A DNA stretch of 45,183 bases from a virus, in IMG/VR virus record IMGVR_UViG_3300031759_000047, positions 1 to 45,183 of that record. One strand, 5' to 3'. The notes under the pieces are model-generated. The model made no database searches. It was not told the origin of the DNA and saw only the letters and a program-made list of their open reading frames with translations. The stretch's first letter is position 1. Every line of letters starts with the position of its first letter. Below, piece after piece: positions 2,046-12,196 of this stretch. The translations under genes were made by a program, and so were the position numbers.

Positions 2046-2567
2046 CTATTCAGCCTTCCCCAGCAGGGGTGGGAAGCCCTTCAGGCTGATCGGCATGCGC
2101 CCAGAGCCGCCGCGGCCGGCCATCAGCAGCGCCTTGGGCGGCTCGGGGACCATGCGGGTGACCACGTGCCGGCGCGCCATGACGGGCTCGGGCAGGGCCG
2201 CCCCCGGCGGCGGAGGGGGCGGGACCGGCGCGGGGGCGGCCATCCGGCGGCCCGGACGCCTGATCCGCACCCGCATCCTCTTGAGGACCGCCAGGACCGC
2301 CTGTCGCGAGCAGCCGATGATCGGGGCGATGGCCTCGTGGCTCTTGAACTCCTGGGTGTAGAGCCTGACGATCTGGGCCTTCTCCTCGTCGGTGAAGTTC
2401 TTGCGGCGACGGCTGGGGGCCACGTATCCCTGGAGCTTGAGCACCCGGTCGATCGCCGGGCGCGTGCATCCGTAGGTCCGCGCGATGGTGCTGGTCTCCT
2501 CGCCGGCCAGTCGGCGGCGCAGCACCTCGGGGTAGTCCGCGCGGGGTATCTTGACGTTGCCGATCAT
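2046..2567 (-). CDS. Double helix-turn-helix DNA-binding protein
   Basis: 173 aa, ATG at 2567 with AGGA upstream. Two HTH-like units are visible. Residues ~10-45 contain AGEETSTIARTYGCTRPAID and residues ~58-98 contain FKSHEAIAPIIGCSRQAVLA; both have the helix-turn-helix pattern of resolvase/transposase-type and homeodomain-like HTHs. An Arg-rich linker, a Pro/Ala-rich segment (~110-125) and a basic C-terminus follow. It probably binds DNA as a regulator or packaging accessory. It lies between the terminase and portal genes in its own interval, with a promoter-like sequence at 2748-2776 upstream. Exact role unknown. Confidence 0.65.
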   Translation of the reverse strand: MIGNVKIPRADYPEVLRRRLAGEETSTIARTYGCTRPAIDRVLKLQGYVAPSRRRKNFTDEEKAQIVRLYTQEFKSHEAIAPIIGCSRQAVLAVLKRMRVRIRRPGRRMAAPAPVPPPPPPGAALPEPVMARRHVVTRMVPEPPKALLMAGRGGSGRMPISLKGFPPLLGKAE

Positions 2568-2747
2568 CTACGTTCCTGAATTCTCAAGCGGTCCAACAGG
2601 GCCCGGGCACGCCCGCCGCTAGCGGAGCGGGCTCATCCCGAGTCCTGAGCGACTGGTTAGCCGGTAAGGCCGCTTCATAACCCGGCGCGTCGCTTTTCCG
2701 CGCCCCTCTCGGGAGCTAGCAGTTCCCTGCCCAGGCGCGGCCGGGCC

Positions 2748-2776
2748 CCTATAGCGCGTCAGATGCCTTGCGTCAA
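2748..2776 (-). promoter_or_regulatory. Sigma70-like promoter upstream of HTH gene
   Basis: On the minus strand TTGACG (2776-2771) is followed after 17 bases by TATAGG (2753-2748), a good sigma70-type match. It begins just past the stop of the 2778-3020 gene and precedes a 180-base leader to the HTH gene. That leader contains nested inverted repeats (for example GCGAC/GTCGC around 2649-2693). Confidence 0.45.
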
Positions 2777-2777
2777 G

Positions 2778-3020
2778 CTAGAAACCCCACTTGGACAACT
2801 CTGGGCACTGCGAGGTGTCGTACACGAGCCACTCTCCGGGCCGGAGGGCCTCCCCGTCGCAGGGGCGGACGTCGTAGCCGCCGGCCGGGTCCCTCACCAG
2901 GTCGCAGGAGCGGGCAGTGACCGGGTCGGGCGGCACCTGGGGCTCGGTCAGGACCACTTCCTGACGCTCCGTGATGGGGTGGGGGAAGAACTCGTCCGGA
3001 GTCTTCGTGAACTGCAGCAT
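2778..3020 (-). CDS. Hypothetical protein downstream of large terminase, 80 aa
   Basis: ATG at 3020 overlaps the terminase stop as TGATG, so translation is probably coupled to the terminase. The product is acidic and Pro-rich in its first half (EPQVPPDPV). It has a compact second half with YDVRPCDGEALRPGEWLVYD that looks like a small beta fold. Two of its three cysteines lie in this half. No family recognised. Confidence 0.65.
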   Translation of the reverse strand: MLQFTKTPDEFFPHPITERQEVVLTEPQVPPDPVTARSCDLVRDPAGGYDVRPCDGEALRPGEWLVYDTSQCPELSKWGF

Positions 3021-4672
3021 CAGAACCCCTTGGTGTTGCCGAACGCCAGCGCCACGCCGTAGCACATGCAGTCGAACATCTCGTCCTCGTCCTCCGGCGT
3101 GCCCTTCTTCATGCGGTAGTTGGTCGCCTGGTAGAAGAAGTGGTTGCGCACCCGGCCGTTGAACGCGCAGGTGTGGTCGAAGGCCGGCTGGCTGACCTTG
3201 AACAACCCCTGGCTGATGTAGCCGGACACCGACAGTGCGCGGCCGTCCTTGCCCAGGGCCGTGAGCTCGCTGGGGACGGGCTTGACCCGCCAGCCCTTGC
3301 GCTGGGCGTGCTGGATGAGCGCGACGCCGGAGTCCTTGTCCTCCACGTAGCAGTAGGTCCAGCCCCCGCGGGGCTTGACGATCTTCGCCAGCTCCTCGCC
3401 GCGGCGCAGGATGCCCGGCATCCACGCGGTCAGCAGGTCGGCCGATATCTTGTCGTAGGCCCACTCCAGGGCCACCAGCGAGGGCTTGGGGTAGCGGGTG
3501 TAGGCATAGTAAACCACGCCGGTGCCGTCGTGCTTCTTCTCCGTCTTGGAGGCGGTGTCCGCCACCGCGTAGACCGCGTCGCACACCCGGGGCCACTCGG
3601 CCGGCCGGTGCTCTACGCGGGGGACCAGGTCGCCCTTGCCGTCCGGCACCAGCTCGTTGGTGGGGCGCGGTACGAGGAACTTCTCCTCCGCGAAGTAGTA
3701 CGAGCCCGCGCGGGCCTTGGCCCGCTGGTTGTACTGGGTGTCCCAGGCGAAGTCGGACGTGATCTTGAGCGCCGCGCACTTGGCGGCGTCCCAACGCTGG
3801 GGGAACAGCAGCTCGCCGTCCTCGCGGCGGGGGTCCTCGTAGTAGGGCGTCTTGACGACCAGGGAGCGCGTGTACTCCATGGGGAGGACCAGCTTGACCC
3901 ACTTGTCGCCGCCCTGGGCCTCGATCTCCTCGGCCACGCCGCACAGGTCGTCGGTGGCCAGCCGGTGCATCATCAGGACCATGAGGTCCTTCATCGGGTC
4001 GTTGAGGCGGCTCTGGGCCGACTCCTTGAAGATGCGGGTGGTGGTCTCTTTCTCCGCGGCGGACTCGGCCTGCTCCGTGGAGTGCGGGTCGTCGATCAGC
4101 AGCCGGTTGCCGCGGCCCGCGGTCAGTCGCGAGATGGGGACCGCCTTGCGGCCGCCCTTGTAGGTGTTCTCGAACTCCTCCTCGGCGAAGGAGGTCAGCT
4201 CCACCTGGGGCCAGTGCTCCTGGTACCAGTCGCTGAGCACCAGGTCGCGGTGCTTGCGGGAGTCGCGCCGGGCGTAGCCGGCCTCGTAGGAAGTGGTGAA
4301 GTAGCGCAGGCCTGGGCTGAGCATGGGCCCCCACTCCCAGGCGGGGAACATCACGGAGACGCTCAGGCTCTTCATCGTGCCCGGCGGCTGGTTGATCATC
4401 AGCCGAGTGATCTCTCCTCGGTGGGCCGCCTCCAGGTGCTCTGCGATGGCGTCGATGTGCCAGTTGTGAAAGTACTTGGCGGAGGGCTCCGGCACGTGCC
4501 AGGCCCTGCGGACGAAGGTGGAGAACCGCTTGCAGGACTCCATGACCTCGAGGCGCTTGTCCTCAATGTAGGCCCGGTTTTGCTCCCTTATCTTCTTCAG
4601 CCTCATCATCCCGTCGCGCAGCAGAGTTAGCTTCTGCTCCCGCGACAGCGAGCTCAAGTCGCTTGAGGGCAA
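3020..4672 (-). CDS. terL: Terminase large subunit
   Basis: ATPase-nuclease motor that packages DNA into the prohead and cuts concatemers. 550 aa from the TTG at 4672; ATG at 4609 is an alternative start, and neither has a strong ribosome site. The N-terminal ATPase has a Walker A variant NQPPGTMKS (residues 94-102) and Walker B RLLIDDPHS (190-198), with an E-T-T-T stretch downstream typical of the family. The C-terminal RNase H-like nuclease begins near YAVADTASKTEKKHD (~365-380), where the first metal-binding Asp is expected; later acidic positions include EDKDSG and DEDEMFD. Length is normal for the family. It overlaps the small terminase gene by up to 110 bases. Confidence 0.93.
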   Translation of the reverse strand: MPSSDLSSLSREQKLTLLRDGMMRLKKIREQNRAYIEDKRLEVMESCKRFSTFVRRAWHVPEPSAKYFHNWHIDAIAEHLEAAHRGEITRLMINQPPGTMKSLSVSVMFPAWEWGPMLSPGLRYFTTSYEAGYARRDSRKHRDLVLSDWYQEHWPQVELTSFAEEEFENTYKGGRKAVPISRLTAGRGNRLLIDDPHSTEQAESAAEKETTTRIFKESAQSRLNDPMKDLMVLMMHRLATDDLCGVAEEIEAQGGDKWVKLVLPMEYTRSLVVKTPYYEDPRREDGELLFPQRWDAAKCAALKITSDFAWDTQYNQRAKARAGSYYFAEEKFLVPRPTNELVPDGKGDLVPRVEHRPAEWPRVCDAVYAVADTASKTEKKHDGTGVVYYAYTRYPKPSLVALEWAYDKISADLLTAWMPGILRRGEELAKIVKPRGGWTYCYVEDKDSGVALIQHAQRKGWRVKPVPSELTALGKDGRALSVSGYISQGLFKVSQPAFDHTCAFNGRVRNHFFYQATNYRMKKGTPEDEDEMFDCMCYGVALAFGNTKGF

Positions 4673-5181: not shown

Positions 5182-5700
5182 TCAGCCGACCAGCTCCACG
5201 TCCGACCTCTGCACCTGGACCGGCCGGCGGCCCCCCAGCATGCTCAGCAGGACGGTGACGCGCTCGTCGTTGGACCACTCCACGGGGGCCTCGAAGCCCT
5301 CGAACGCCCCCTGGGTGATCTTCACCGTGCCCCCCACTGGGATGAGTTTGGAGACGGCCGCGTCCACGTGGCGCGCCTCCATGAGCCCGGAGCCCGAGCA
5401 CTTCCCGATGAGCACGTCCATCATGCGCTGGTCCACGGGGGAGGGCACCTCGCTGGTCTCGGGCAGGAGGCGCCGCACGCCGCGGGTGTTGTTGACCCGC
5501 TGCCAGCCCTCTCGCTCGGTGTCCAGGTTGACGAATATGTAGCCCCGGATGTAGGGCACCTCCGTGGTGACTCGCCGGCCCTGCTGGACCCGGGACACCG
5601 CGCAGCGCGGGTTGAATGCCTGGAACCCCTGCCGGGACAGCTGGTCCTCGGCGGTGAACTCGGCGAGCGGCTTGACCGCCGCGACGCGCCATGCGTACAT
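5182..5700 (-). CDS. Phage NusG/RfaH-family transcription antitermination factor
   Basis: 172 aa. The N-terminal NGN domain (1-~95) starts MYAWRVAAVKPLAEFTAEDQL and has the hallmark PYIRGYIFV at 49-57. A C-terminal KOW domain covers ~120-172, with VGGTVKITQGAFEGFEAPV at 122-140. NusG/RfaH proteins bind the RNA polymerase clamp and suppress pausing or termination. It is the first gene of the minus-strand terminase unit, behind a ~300-base leader with its own promoter, so it may act on this late operon. ATG at 5700 is preceded by GGGAG. Good match to the family in length and domain order. Confidence 0.88.
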   Translation of the reverse strand: MYAWRVAAVKPLAEFTAEDQLSRQGFQAFNPRCAVSRVQQGRRVTTEVPYIRGYIFVNLDTEREGWQRVNNTRGVRRLLPETSEVPSPVDQRMMDVLIGKCSGSGLMEARHVDAAVSKLIPVGGTVKITQGAFEGFEAPVEWSNDERVTVLLSMLGGRRPVQVQRSDVELVG

Positions 5701-6048: not shown

Positions 6049-6549
6049 CTACGGACCCATCCACTGGCCCTCGTACCAGGCCGAAAGCGCGCGGTACAGC
6101 GCCTGCGGCTCGGCCGGGAGCTCCGCCACCTCCGAGAGCTCCCGCACCGTGGCCCCGTGGGCGTAGCGCATCACGAACGGCCTCCAGGACCGCGCCCCAG
6201 TCCTCACCCCGGCCACGAACGCCGTGATGACTTGCCGGTGGGCCGCGCGGGCGTGCCACTCCCTCTGGCTGTCCTCTATGCCGCTGAGCGCCAGCCGGGT
6301 GCCCCCGGCCCCCAGGGTGGCCACCTTGAGCTCGCAGGGTAGGAGCACCCTCAGACTCCTCCGGGAAGAAGGGTTCATACCCGTCATCTCGGACACTGAT
6401 AGCACCACTCCTAGCGTCAGGTCCGGGGCCCCCGAGCCCGACCCCCAGCCCCGCCGCCGGGCCGACCCTCGACCCACCGGCTCCCGCCCGTCCACCCAGC
6501 CGGGCCAGCCGCCCCGCAGCCAGTCCCTGAAGTCCGACTCCTCGCTCAC
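6049..6549 (-). CDS. PD-(D/E)XK nuclease (resolvase/VRR-NUC-like)
   Basis: 166 aa from GTG at 6549, which overlaps the upstream stop as GTGA. The nuclease core is readable: early E4 in SEESDF, GAPDL with D43, then CELKV with E73 and K75, and a Q95-x-x-W98 element (SQREW). This order is that of PD-(D/E)XK enzymes such as VRR-NUC and phage Holliday-junction or recombination nucleases. It would cut or resolve DNA during replication or packaging. The segment between D43 and E73 is long, with a Ser/Arg-rich insert. Exact substrate not determinable. Confidence 0.7.
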   Translation of the reverse strand: MSEESDFRDWLRGGWPGWVDGREPVGRGSARRRGWGSGSGAPDLTLGVVLSVSEMTGMNPSSRRSLRVLLPCELKVATLGAGGTRLALSGIEDSQREWHARAAHRQVITAFVAGVRTGARSWRPFVMRYAHGATVRELSEVAELPAEPQALYRALSAWYEGQWMGP

Positions 6550-6899
6550 GACTCCACCGTCCCGCTCATGACGATGCCGAGGGCCTGCCAGAGCTCCGTG
6601 GTGGTCAGCTCTGGGAACAGGACCCACTCGTCCTTGAACGAGCCGCCAAACGCCCGGCAGAGCACGAGCTTGACCGCCCTGCGCTCGTCCCTGGTCCAAG
6701 AGTTTTCTCCGTACAGTCCGGTGAGCGAGAACCTCACCCATCCCTTGGGCATCTTGCGGTTTCTCGCCGACGCCCTGCTCATCCTCACGCGGCTGTCCGG
6801 ACACTTCCGCATCAACTCCGTCAGTGCCACCGCTGCTTGGACGCAGCGCAGCCTGTGCAGGGTCCTGTTACCCACCCTCGTCATCGTGCCGTCAGTCAT
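6546..6899 (-). CDS. Hypothetical basic protein, 117 aa
   Basis: ATG at 6899 with GAGGAG upstream; GTGA overlap with the following nuclease gene. The first 50 residues are Arg-rich and helical (LHRLRCVQAAVALTELMRK). The second half contains SWTRDERRAVKLVLCRAFGG and ELTTTELWQALGIVM. No family recognised. It is the first gene to the left of the repeat array and may be a partner of the nuclease. Confidence 0.6.
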   Translation of the reverse strand: MTDGTMTRVGNRTLHRLRCVQAAVALTELMRKCPDSRVRMSRASARNRKMPKGWVRFSLTGLYGENSWTRDERRAVKLVLCRAFGGSFKDEWVLFPELTTTELWQALGIVMSGTVES

Positions 6900-6941: not shown

Positions 6942-7327
6942 GTATCCGCCCCTCGAGCCCCCTTAAGGGGGAGGCTCGCTAGGGGCGGAAACATCCTCCT
7001 GTCCGGCCGTATCCGCCCCGCCATACGAAAGGGATACGGGGCGGATACTTTTAATTTGATTACTGCGCCCCGTAAGGTATTGCAGAACCAGTTCAATTTG
7101 ATTTAAAGTATCCGCCCCTTTCCCGCGGGGCGGATACGCCTCTGGGTTTTTACGGGCAACCCACGTTTTCTGACCGATTCCGTAGAAGCCACGTTTTGCT
7201 GGCGGGGCGGATACCCGCGAATAAGGCGCAATCCGGGCGAGGTACGTTCTTGGCTCGTTTTGCAGCATTATCCAACAGCGTGCTCCGGGCTCGCAAAAGT
7301 ATCCGCCCCCGAATGAGGGGCGGATAC
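6942..7327. repeat. Nine-copy inverted/direct repeat array, candidate replication origin
   Basis: The 11-mer GTATCCGCCCC or its complement GGGGCGGATAC occurs nine times. Plus copies are at 6942, 7009, 7108 and 7299. Minus copies are at 6982 (one mismatch), 7038, 7127, 7204 and 7317. Eight form four inverted pairs with spacers of 29, 18, 8 and 7 bases; one is unpaired. The second and fourth pairs extend to 12 bp. Between pairs 2 and 3 lies an AT-rich stretch (7049-7107) with two TTTGATT motifs, unusual in this GC-rich genome. Iterons plus an AT-rich unwinding segment near replication genes fit an origin. An operator array or centromere-like site are alternatives. Bases 6900-7149 hold no convincing gene. 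Confidence 0.7.
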
Positions 7328-7425
7328 TCCTCGGCCGCCCCGGACAGGGTGTAGAGCAGGCCGACGAGCAGCCCCAGGACCACCCCTGCGGCCGCCCAGC
7401 ACCACAGCGTGCGGGCGGGGTTCAC
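7150..7425 (-). CDS. Small membrane protein, C-terminus encoded in repeat array
   Basis: GTG at 7425 overlaps the upstream stop as GTGA and has GGGAGA upstream. One strong transmembrane helix covers residues ~6-27 (TLWCWAAAGVVLGLLVGLLY), followed by an Arg-rich tail. The last ~60 codons run through three copies of the 11-bp repeat, so the tail sequence is partly dictated by the repeats. It is the last gene of the minus-strand small-gene unit. Function unknown; the tail might not be under protein-level selection. Confidence 0.5.
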   Translation of the reverse strand: MNPARTLWCWAAAGVVLGLLVGLLYTLSGAAEEYPPLIRGRILLRARSTLLDNAAKRAKNVPRPDCALFAGIRPASKTWLLRNRSENVGCP

Positions 7426-9864: not shown

Positions 9865-10169
9865 TCGCTCCTCCACTGCTCGGGGTCGAGTCCGTCCAGC
9901 ACACCTAGCTCTAGGAACATCCTCTCGTAGTTCTTCGCCTGAGTTCGGATCATGTTCCTGCCGACCTCGTTATCGGGGATGCTATAGGTTGTATCGATCC
10001 GGAGTATCCTCTCCTTAACGAGCGCTTCCAGGACCGGGCGGCGCAGGTGGGGAGGTAGCCTGTGAAGAACGCAGACGTCCCTCATCAACTGTTCGTCCAG
10101 GAAACGCGCCTTCTCGTCTACCTCGAGGTGGGCTGTCATGATGGCACGGTGTCTGTCCAGAAAATTCAT
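9861..10169 (-). CDS. Hypothetical protein, 102 aa
   Basis: ATG at 10169 overlaps the helicase stop (ATGA). The product is all-helical with acidic and basic patches: MNFLDRHRAIMTAHLEVDEK, LHRLPPHLRRPVLEALVKER, and QAKNYERMFLELGVLDG. Coupling to the primase-helicase gene suggests a replication accessory role, but no family was recognised. Confidence 0.6.
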   Translation of the reverse strand: MNFLDRHRAIMTAHLEVDEKARFLDEQLMRDVCVLHRLPPHLRRPVLEALVKERILRIDTTYSIPDNEVGRNMIRTQAKNYERMFLELGVLDGLDPEQWRSE

Positions 10170-12196
10170 TTCTTCCCCATCCCAAATGTAGGTTTCTTGA
10201 AGAGGTAGAAGTGCTCCTCCTCGGCCGGGCGGTAGGCCTCCACCAGCGCGGCCACCAGCTCGCCGCGCACCTCGGAGCTCCTCTTGCCCATCATCACGTC
10301 CTCCAGGGACCAGCGCGCGTAGCCCGGGGGCGGCTGGGCGCGGCCGGCGGTGCGCGCCACCGCCAGGCCCTCGCCCTCGCAGGACTCCAGCGCGCGCTTG
10401 GCGCGGGTCATCATCACCATCATCCGTGCCCGGAGGTCGTCCTCCTGGCGGGCAGAGCGCGCCCTCTGCCTCTGCTCGCGGCGCTCCTCCGGCGTGACGG
10501 CCTGCATCAGGCTGACCGTCCGGTACAGGGCCGTCTGGCGCTGCCCCCAGGGCGTGTCTATCGCCTCCTCGCTGACCTGCGTGTGGACCTCGTACAGAGA
10601 CGTGGTGGGCTCGAAGCGTCGCTTGCCCAGCGAGACGAAGCGCGTGGTGGGCGGGGGGTCATCGGGGTCCTGCTTGGGCGGCAGCGCCACGAATATCTCT
10701 CCCGTGGTGTCGGCGGCCCAGGCCCCCGCGCCGCGGGCCGACAGGTCCTCGCCCTCGGAGAACTTGAGGGCCTTGGCCACGTGCATGGTGGCCCAGAGGC
10801 TGGCGTCGCCTATGCCCGCCCGCAGCGCGGCAACCGCGGCGGACACCTCGCTGTTGGCGTTCTCGTCGGAGAGGGCCACGGTGGCCGGGACGGTGTCCAG
10901 GACCACCAGCGGCGTGGGGGAGTACCCGTCCGCCTCCTGGCGGTAGCCCTCGGCCTCGTCCGCCCTCATCAGGTCGAGCAGGGTCTTGCGCCAGACCGCG
11001 GCCTCCGCGCGCTTGGCGGGGATCAGCTTGAACCAGCGGTCGAACTCGGAGTGGGCGGCCCCGATCTGCCCCGCCAGCTTCATGCCGCGGATGATGCGCT
11101 GGCACTGGTGGACGTCCTCGGTCACGAAGTAGACGCGGCGCCTCAGGTAGGGCCGGGCCAGCCCCTCCACCTCCGCCAGGTGGGCCACCACCAGCGTCAG
11201 CGCCACCAGGATGGAGGACTTGCCCACGCCGGCGGACCCCGCGACCACCACCATGCCCGTGGCCACGAAGCCGTCCAGCACGAACTCCACGGGCTGCCCG
11301 CGGCCGAAGTCCACCGGGATCGCGGTGGCCAGCAGGTCCATCCCCTGGCGCTCGCGGGGGTCCCAGCCGGCGGCCTTGGCCCAGGCGAACACCGAGCGCC
11401 AGGGCGCGTAGGGGAGGCCCGTGTTGGCGAACTTGCGCCGGTTCTCGGCCTCGTCGAACTTGGGGCTGCGCCGCGCCCACTCCAGGAACAGGTCCTCCCC
11501 GCCCTCCACCTTCTGGAGTGCCAGCGCCACGGACACCCAGGTGTGGTAGGGCGAGGGGTCCAGGTAGGTCAGCGCGTGGCGCAGGTCGCGCAGCTGGGCC
11601 TCCTCCAGCGCCTCCATCGGGCGGGCGAGCAGCGCGGCCTGGTCCGCCGGGGGGCCGGAGCCCGCGCGGTCGTACAGGTCGGCGGGCTCGCCGTCCCTGA
11701 TCTCGTCCAGGGTGACGCCGAAGTAGCGGCCCAGCGAGTACCACTCGTGGCCCCGCTCGTGGTCCACCCGGGCGGCGAAGGGGCGGCCGTAGGAGATGCA
11801 GTGCCACCCGCCGCCCGACACGCTGCGCTCGATGTAGCCAGGCATGTTCCCGACCTCCGAGGCCGTGGGGTCTGCATCATGGTCGAAGCCCTGCCACGCC
11901 CCGCCCATGCCGTCCGACCCCAGGGCGAATCCCAGGTGCAGCGTACCGCCGGACTCCTTGACCGCCCTGTGGGCCTGCTCGAAGGTGGCCAGCTGGGCCA
12001 GGTCCTCGGGGGTGTCGGTCTTCTCGCGGGGGCCGCCGCTGAGGTAGAAGGGGTTCTTGGGGGGCTTCTTGCCCGGCATCGTGATGGGGCCGTAGCGCCA
12101 GACCAGCCAGCGGCGGGCCAGCTTCATCAGCTGGAGCGTCGTGAGGCCCTGGCGCGGGTCGTCCCGCCGGACCGTGTAGGCGCTGATGTCCACCAT
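10166..12196 (-). CDS. Primase-helicase (prim-pol-like N-terminus, PriCT-2, RecA-like ATPase)
   Basis: 676 aa. The N-terminal ~200 residues resemble phage bifunctional primase-polymerase domains: GTLHLGFALGSD, GFDHDAD as a possible metal site, and SGGGWHCISYG. Residues ~205-265 match a primase C-terminal type 2 helical domain (LRHALTYLDPSPYHTWVSVA). A RecA-fold ATPase follows with Walker A GSAGVGKSS (~317-325) and Walker B PLVVLDTVPAT (~425). Such proteins unwind and prime phage DNA at the fork. It opens the minus-strand replication unit from the divergent control region, and the repeat array lies ~3 kb downstream. ATG at 12196 has only a weak ribosome site, so a start slightly downstream is possible. 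Confidence 0.78.
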   Translation of the reverse strand: MVDISAYTVRRDDPRQGLTTLQLMKLARRWLVWRYGPITMPGKKPPKNPFYLSGGPREKTDTPEDLAQLATFEQAHRAVKESGGTLHLGFALGSDGMGGAWQGFDHDADPTASEVGNMPGYIERSVSGGGWHCISYGRPFAARVDHERGHEWYSLGRYFGVTLDEIRDGEPADLYDRAGSGPPADQAALLARPMEALEEAQLRDLRHALTYLDPSPYHTWVSVALALQKVEGGEDLFLEWARRSPKFDEAENRRKFANTGLPYAPWRSVFAWAKAAGWDPRERQGMDLLATAIPVDFGRGQPVEFVLDGFVATGMVVVAGSAGVGKSSILVALTLVVAHLAEVEGLARPYLRRRVYFVTEDVHQCQRIIRGMKLAGQIGAAHSEFDRWFKLIPAKRAEAAVWRKTLLDLMRADEAEGYRQEADGYSPTPLVVLDTVPATVALSDENANSEVSAAVAALRAGIGDASLWATMHVAKALKFSEGEDLSARGAGAWAADTTGEIFVALPPKQDPDDPPPTTRFVSLGKRRFEPTTSLYEVHTQVSEEAIDTPWGQRQTALYRTVSLMQAVTPEERREQRQRARSARQEDDLRARMMVMMTRAKRALESCEGEGLAVARTAGRAQPPPGYARWSLEDVMMGKRSSEVRGELVAALVEAYRPAEEEHFYLFKKPTFGMGKK

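Follow-up and report, generated by a model that had tools for sequence, protein, structure and literature searches.

Inverted 11-bp iterons flanking an AT-rich segment form a candidate replication origin in a phage with a RepA-like primase-helicase

The window analysed here is a 45,183-nt stretch of viral DNA (positions 1-45183), corresponding to 18483-63665 of a 63,733-bp sister record of the same virus, G002. The virus also occurs in several IMG/VR samples with 100% identical terminase large subunits (L017 and L022; IMGVR 3300013093_004951 and 3300032675_000068). Genes transcribed leftward run in the order primase-helicase, small genes, an array of short repeats, a 117-aa gene, a NusG-like gene, terminase large subunit (TerL) and portal. 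Rightward genes, at 12.5-35 kb, encode a DNA polymerase, a thymidylate synthase, a Sak4-like protein, a Cas4-type exonuclease, a helicase and a methyltransferase. The genes that matter for the array are listed below.

10166-12196, minus strand: RepA-like primase-helicase (PriCT_2 + AAA_25), the proposed initiator
6546-6899, leftward: 117-aa gene of unknown function, left neighbour of the array
5182-5700, minus strand: NusG-like antiterminator, a syntenic marker
3020-4657, minus strand: TerL, a syntenic marker
1-1398, leftward: portal

An initial annotation, made from the sequence alone, had placed a nuclease unit on one side of the array and the end of the primase-helicase unit on the other. 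This setting did not hold. The left flank is the 117-aa gene, and on the right small genes intervene before the end of the primase-helicase gene at 10166, 2.8 kb from the array; PHROGs and Pfam revealed no nuclease unit in the array-adjacent proteins searched. The terminase gene lies 2.3 kb downstream of the array. A NusG paralog directly upstream of the terminase is seen both in the window (5182-5700) and in related contigs (L018 3704-4195, L026 8926-9558, L028 5094-5687), which suggests processive antitermination of the late genes.

The array consists of the 11-mer GTATCCGCCCC in eight exact copies and one copy with a single mismatch, all inside 386 bp (6942-7327); four are plus-strand and five minus-strand copies. 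Under an order-2 Markov model, chance would give 0.029 exact copies over the whole window and 0.0002 over the array. We found no exact copy outside the array, either in the window or in the sister record, and the 11-mer sought elsewhere gave matches from the same virus only. Conservation among the copies is limited to the 11 bp, and the 10 bases on each side vary freely. The nine-copy array described initially is therefore real and far above chance, except that the copy at 6982 on the minus strand is imperfect. Its arrangement in four inverted pairs with shrinking spacers plus one single copy was also described correctly: the pairs 6942/6982, 7009/7038, 7108/7127 and 7299/7317 have spacers of 29, 18, 8 and 7 bp, respectively, and the copy at 7204 stands alone.

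6942-7327, no strand assigned: entire iteron array, the candidate replication origin
6942-6952, plus strand: iteron 1, GTATCCGCCCC, left-hand member of the inverted pair around the hairpin
6960-6973, no strand assigned: CT(W)WAG-apex hairpin CCCCCTTAAGGGGG
6982-6992, minus strand: iteron 2, GTTTCCGCCCC, with one mismatch, right-hand member of the same pair as iteron 1
7009-7019, plus strand: iteron 3
7038-7048, minus strand: iteron 4
7049-7107, no strand assigned: AT-rich segment, candidate unwinding element, between iterons 4 and 5
7108-7118, plus strand: iteron 5
7127-7137, minus strand: iteron 6
7204-7214, minus strand: iteron 7, a single copy without a partner
7299-7309, plus strand: iteron 8
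7317-7327, minus strand: iteron 9

Two features expected of an iteron origin are present here: a cluster, in non-coding DNA, of several copies of one specific short unit, and an AT-rich segment next to it that could unwind. The stretch at 7049-7107 has a GC content of 34% compared with about 67% genome-wide, in agreement with the earlier remark on an AT-rich stretch within a GC-rich genome. An 18-nt inverted repeat (7038-7055/7101-7118) spans the edges of this segment. A predicted small membrane-protein frame on the minus strand (7150-7424, GTG at 7424) extends into the array, and its C-terminal part would come from iterons 7-9.

The first iteron pair, 6942(+) and 6982(-), encloses a hairpin made of a C-tract, CTTAAG and a G-tract, and it does so at the far end of the array from the helicase gene, a placement shared by the relatives described below. 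Searching the 63.7-kb record for a CT(W)WAG apex on a stem of at least 4 pairs recovered this hairpin alone. Shuffling the array region produces such a hairpin in 0.4% of cases. An Rfam search gave no real match.

Viral-contig searches with the window primase-helicase and the 117-aa protein returned the same virus only, and the window helicase had no match in genome contigs. A TerL search of viral contigs identified L018, at 73% identity. The array is missing from L018, which is no test because the contig ends 5.3 kb upstream and carries an IS605/TnpB gene before NusG (2181-3377, an IS605-type OrfB/TnpB gene inserted immediately upstream of the NusG gene). We found no close relatives that could show the array kept or changed. 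L026 and L028 (TerL 53% identical) share the order primase-helicase, small genes, NusG, TerL and portal, and both carry mixed-orientation short-repeat arrays in the same interval, beginning at or near the primase-helicase stop codon. Their units, CCCGTGCGC in L026 and GGGACA in L028, both differ from that of the window. Judged from these sequences, position and architecture are conserved and the unit is not. The initial annotation had counted non-conservation of the 11-mer in relatives as refuting an origin, and the 11-mer is indeed not conserved; units that differ by lineage are, however, what would be expected of an initiator-specific origin.

Repeat arrays at RepA-like primase-helicase genes extend well beyond these contigs. 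Repeat density was scored in 350-bp windows across 20 such loci from isolated phages and contigs. The maximum fell at the 3' end of the helicase gene in 8 of them (0.9 expected, P about 1e-6); the loci are not fully independent, since they include two Roseobacter phages, CRP-821 and CRP-406. Some helicase families have no 3'-end array (GB2A, NTR1, LP31, Vibrio 1254, Phelemich and others). A second set, drawn from 80 viral-contig relatives of two of the helicases in the first set, yielded 64 loci with enough 3' DNA. Here, the DNA just past the helicase stop had the highest repeat density in 35 of the 64 and ranked among the top three in 47. Units across the class loci include TGGGACA, GGGGACA, CCGTAACA, GGTAACA, ACGATAC, AACGGAA, CGTAGCA and GGAACAA, among others, and typically the direct copies come first, with an inverted pair after them (+++--). 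In Dhillonvirus SM_S22 (L123 5350-5570), a GGGACA iteron block of ~120 bp is tandemly duplicated downstream of the primase-helicase. Many class members (L140, L158, L170 and others) also have a box, ACGATG(T/C)G, about 15 bp past the last iteron, which is absent from the window.

The inverted iterons of the class enclose a hairpin of variable stem and CT(W)WAG apex, for example ACACACCTATAGGTGTGT, ACCCCTTTAGGGGT and ACTACCTTAAGGTAGT. It is found no more than 160 bp from the helicase stop in 33 of the 64 loci, against a background of 0.002 per 160 bp elsewhere in the loci and the same rate in shuffled regions. Grouping at 70% core identity gives 12 clusters, 6 of them with the hairpin; at 60%, 4 of 6 clusters have it. 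BcepGomr, CRP-821 and CRP-406 have it too, and near variants of the apex occur in CGphi29 (CTGTAG) and L026 (CTATTAG). The apex motif is partly post hoc, because it was spotted by eye in several loci, the window among them, and the pattern was fixed only afterwards; the 64-locus set is the better test.

Hairpins between early and late genes could also act as intrinsic terminators, and two in the array precede short minus-strand T-runs (7299-7327, then TTTT; 7108-7137, then TTTAAAT). We consider this highly improbable for the array. Terminator-like hairpins are no commoner than chance predicts (3 found, 2.9 expected), and the copies of the 11-mer have kept their sequence as well as their pairing. 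In relatives, a T-run follows 1 of the 33 class hairpins, so these are not terminators.

The gene setting invites a different explanation, in which the array regulates the late NusG-terminase-portal operon, either as an operator bound by a phage regulator or as a leader forming RNA hairpins for the downstream NusG paralog. The array has a leftward gene on each side and precedes the NusG-like, TerL and portal genes, which would suit that role, as would a weak promoter-like site on the minus strand (7296-7267) and a transcript whose folding is strong whichever strand is read (z about -7). Strong folding, however, follows from inverted DNA repeats, and the unpaired copy keeps the 11-mer, which RNA hairpins would not need. 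Moreover, in phages whose genes are ordered differently (BcepGomr, CRP-821 and SM_S22), the arrays track the primase-helicase and not NusG or the terminase. We therefore think a regulatory leader unlikely. The same phages bear on whether the array is a packaging (pac/cos) site bound by terminase, as its short distance from the terminase gene, matched by arrays close to TerL in L026 and L028, might indicate. In all three, the array stays with the helicase gene and no terminase is annotated within the 8-11 kb examined, leaving a packaging site very doubtful. Clustered inverted repeats can also act as centromeres. A partition site of this kind is scarcely credible here, given that no ParA/ParB-type gene was found among the products searched near the array and that the array class travels with the primase-helicase.

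We infer instead that the array is very probably a phage replication origin, of the kind whose initiator is the element's own helicase. The initial annotation had proposed an origin as well, for reasons other than those that now support it: conserved position, mixed-orientation iterons and a recurring hairpin beside primase-helicases. Cumulative GC skew, which had been suggested as a check, reaches its maximum and turns near 4-4.5 kb of the window. At four-fold degenerate sites, skew mirrors gene direction, being positive in minus-strand genes and negative in plus-strand genes. GC skew is thus uninformative about the origin, and we rejected it as a marker; it lends the array no support.

In the mechanism that we propose, the 11-bp iterons would be initiator binding sites. 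Cooperative binding of the initiator would melt the AT-rich DNA at 7049-7107, allowing a hexameric helicase to be loaded. The hairpin at 6960-6973, extruded or single-stranded, may then serve as the site of helicase loading or of primer start. The iteron binder is most likely the RepA-like primase-helicase itself, acting through a C-terminal DNA-binding domain, but it could be another phage protein. Within the 64-locus set, at a core identity of at least 60%, helicase C-termini resemble each other more when two loci share a unit than when their units differ (0.53 v 0.33, 0.63 v 0.45 and 0.79 v 0.54). This fits reading of the unit by the C-terminus, though the effect is absent at lower identity and the pairs compared are not independent. 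The window helicase is highly divergent, with 18% identity to that of L028, and a class C-terminal HMM gave no significant match to its C-terminus (E 1.3). A structure model of the C-terminal domain, which bears on whether it is a winged helix, was of low confidence (pLDDT 68) and had no significant fold match in the PDB.

Measured against the class, the phage encodes a RepA-like primase-helicase, in which PriCT_2 and AAA_25 both score above cut-off. It also has the CT(W)WAG-apex hairpin (6960-6973) between inverted iterons, in the pair farthest from the helicase gene. The array is downstream of the helicase gene in the same direction but is not directly 3' of it; the intervening gap is a clear departure from the class and counts against the origin reading. 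Such a displacement is tolerable in principle, since pRN1 requires a stem-loop 3' of its primase-helicase gene that remains functional when moved (PMC4234260).

The window array looks like a displaced member of a widespread phage origin design. On balance, we lean towards the view that many dsDNA phages, though unrelated, pair their RepA-like primase-helicases with one shared modular type of origin, in which lineage-specific iterons are read by the helicase C-terminus and a near-universal CT(W)WAG hairpin serves for primase start or helicase loading; the window would be a displaced, GC-rich instance. We found no description of the combined iteron and conserved-apex hairpin design in the open-access papers searched. 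Phage origins are seldom mapped, and because iterons change between lineages, they are not findable by sequence similarity. A layout independent of the unit, a conserved apex and a fixed relation to the initiator gene would make origins callable from sequence in many uncultivated phages. The recurring layout would also help to predict initiator-iteron specificities, and the hairpin would be a concrete candidate start site for the primase part of the fused enzymes.

Known systems share parts of this arrangement. The Rep/ori system of SaPIs (Ubeda et al. 2007, as summarised in PMC7581432) resembles the window in having multiple short iterons downstream of the gene for the initiator helicase. SaPI Rep helicases bind iterons directly downstream of their own gene by a C-terminal domain (PMC7581432). 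The window differs in its primase-fused RepA-like AAA_25 helicase, its 2.8-kb gap and its CT(W)WAG hairpin between inverted iterons. The alpha protein of satellite phage P4 is likewise a single primase-helicase initiator that reads short repeats, at ori and crr, which, unlike the array of the window, are two separated sites. Its primase is of the Toprim type, unlike that of the window (PMC4234260). pRN1 ORF904 is also a primase-helicase initiator with an origin 3' of its gene, but pRN1 has a large 100-nt stem-loop without iterons and an SF3 helicase. In RSF1010, RepC reads the iterons, the RepA helicase exposes short stem-loops and RepB' primes them (PMC4234260). Although RSF1010 divides these tasks among three separate proteins, RepA, RepB' and RepC, and leaves the iterons to the last, its oriV resembles the window in combining a RepA-family hexameric helicase with iterons and short stem-loops.
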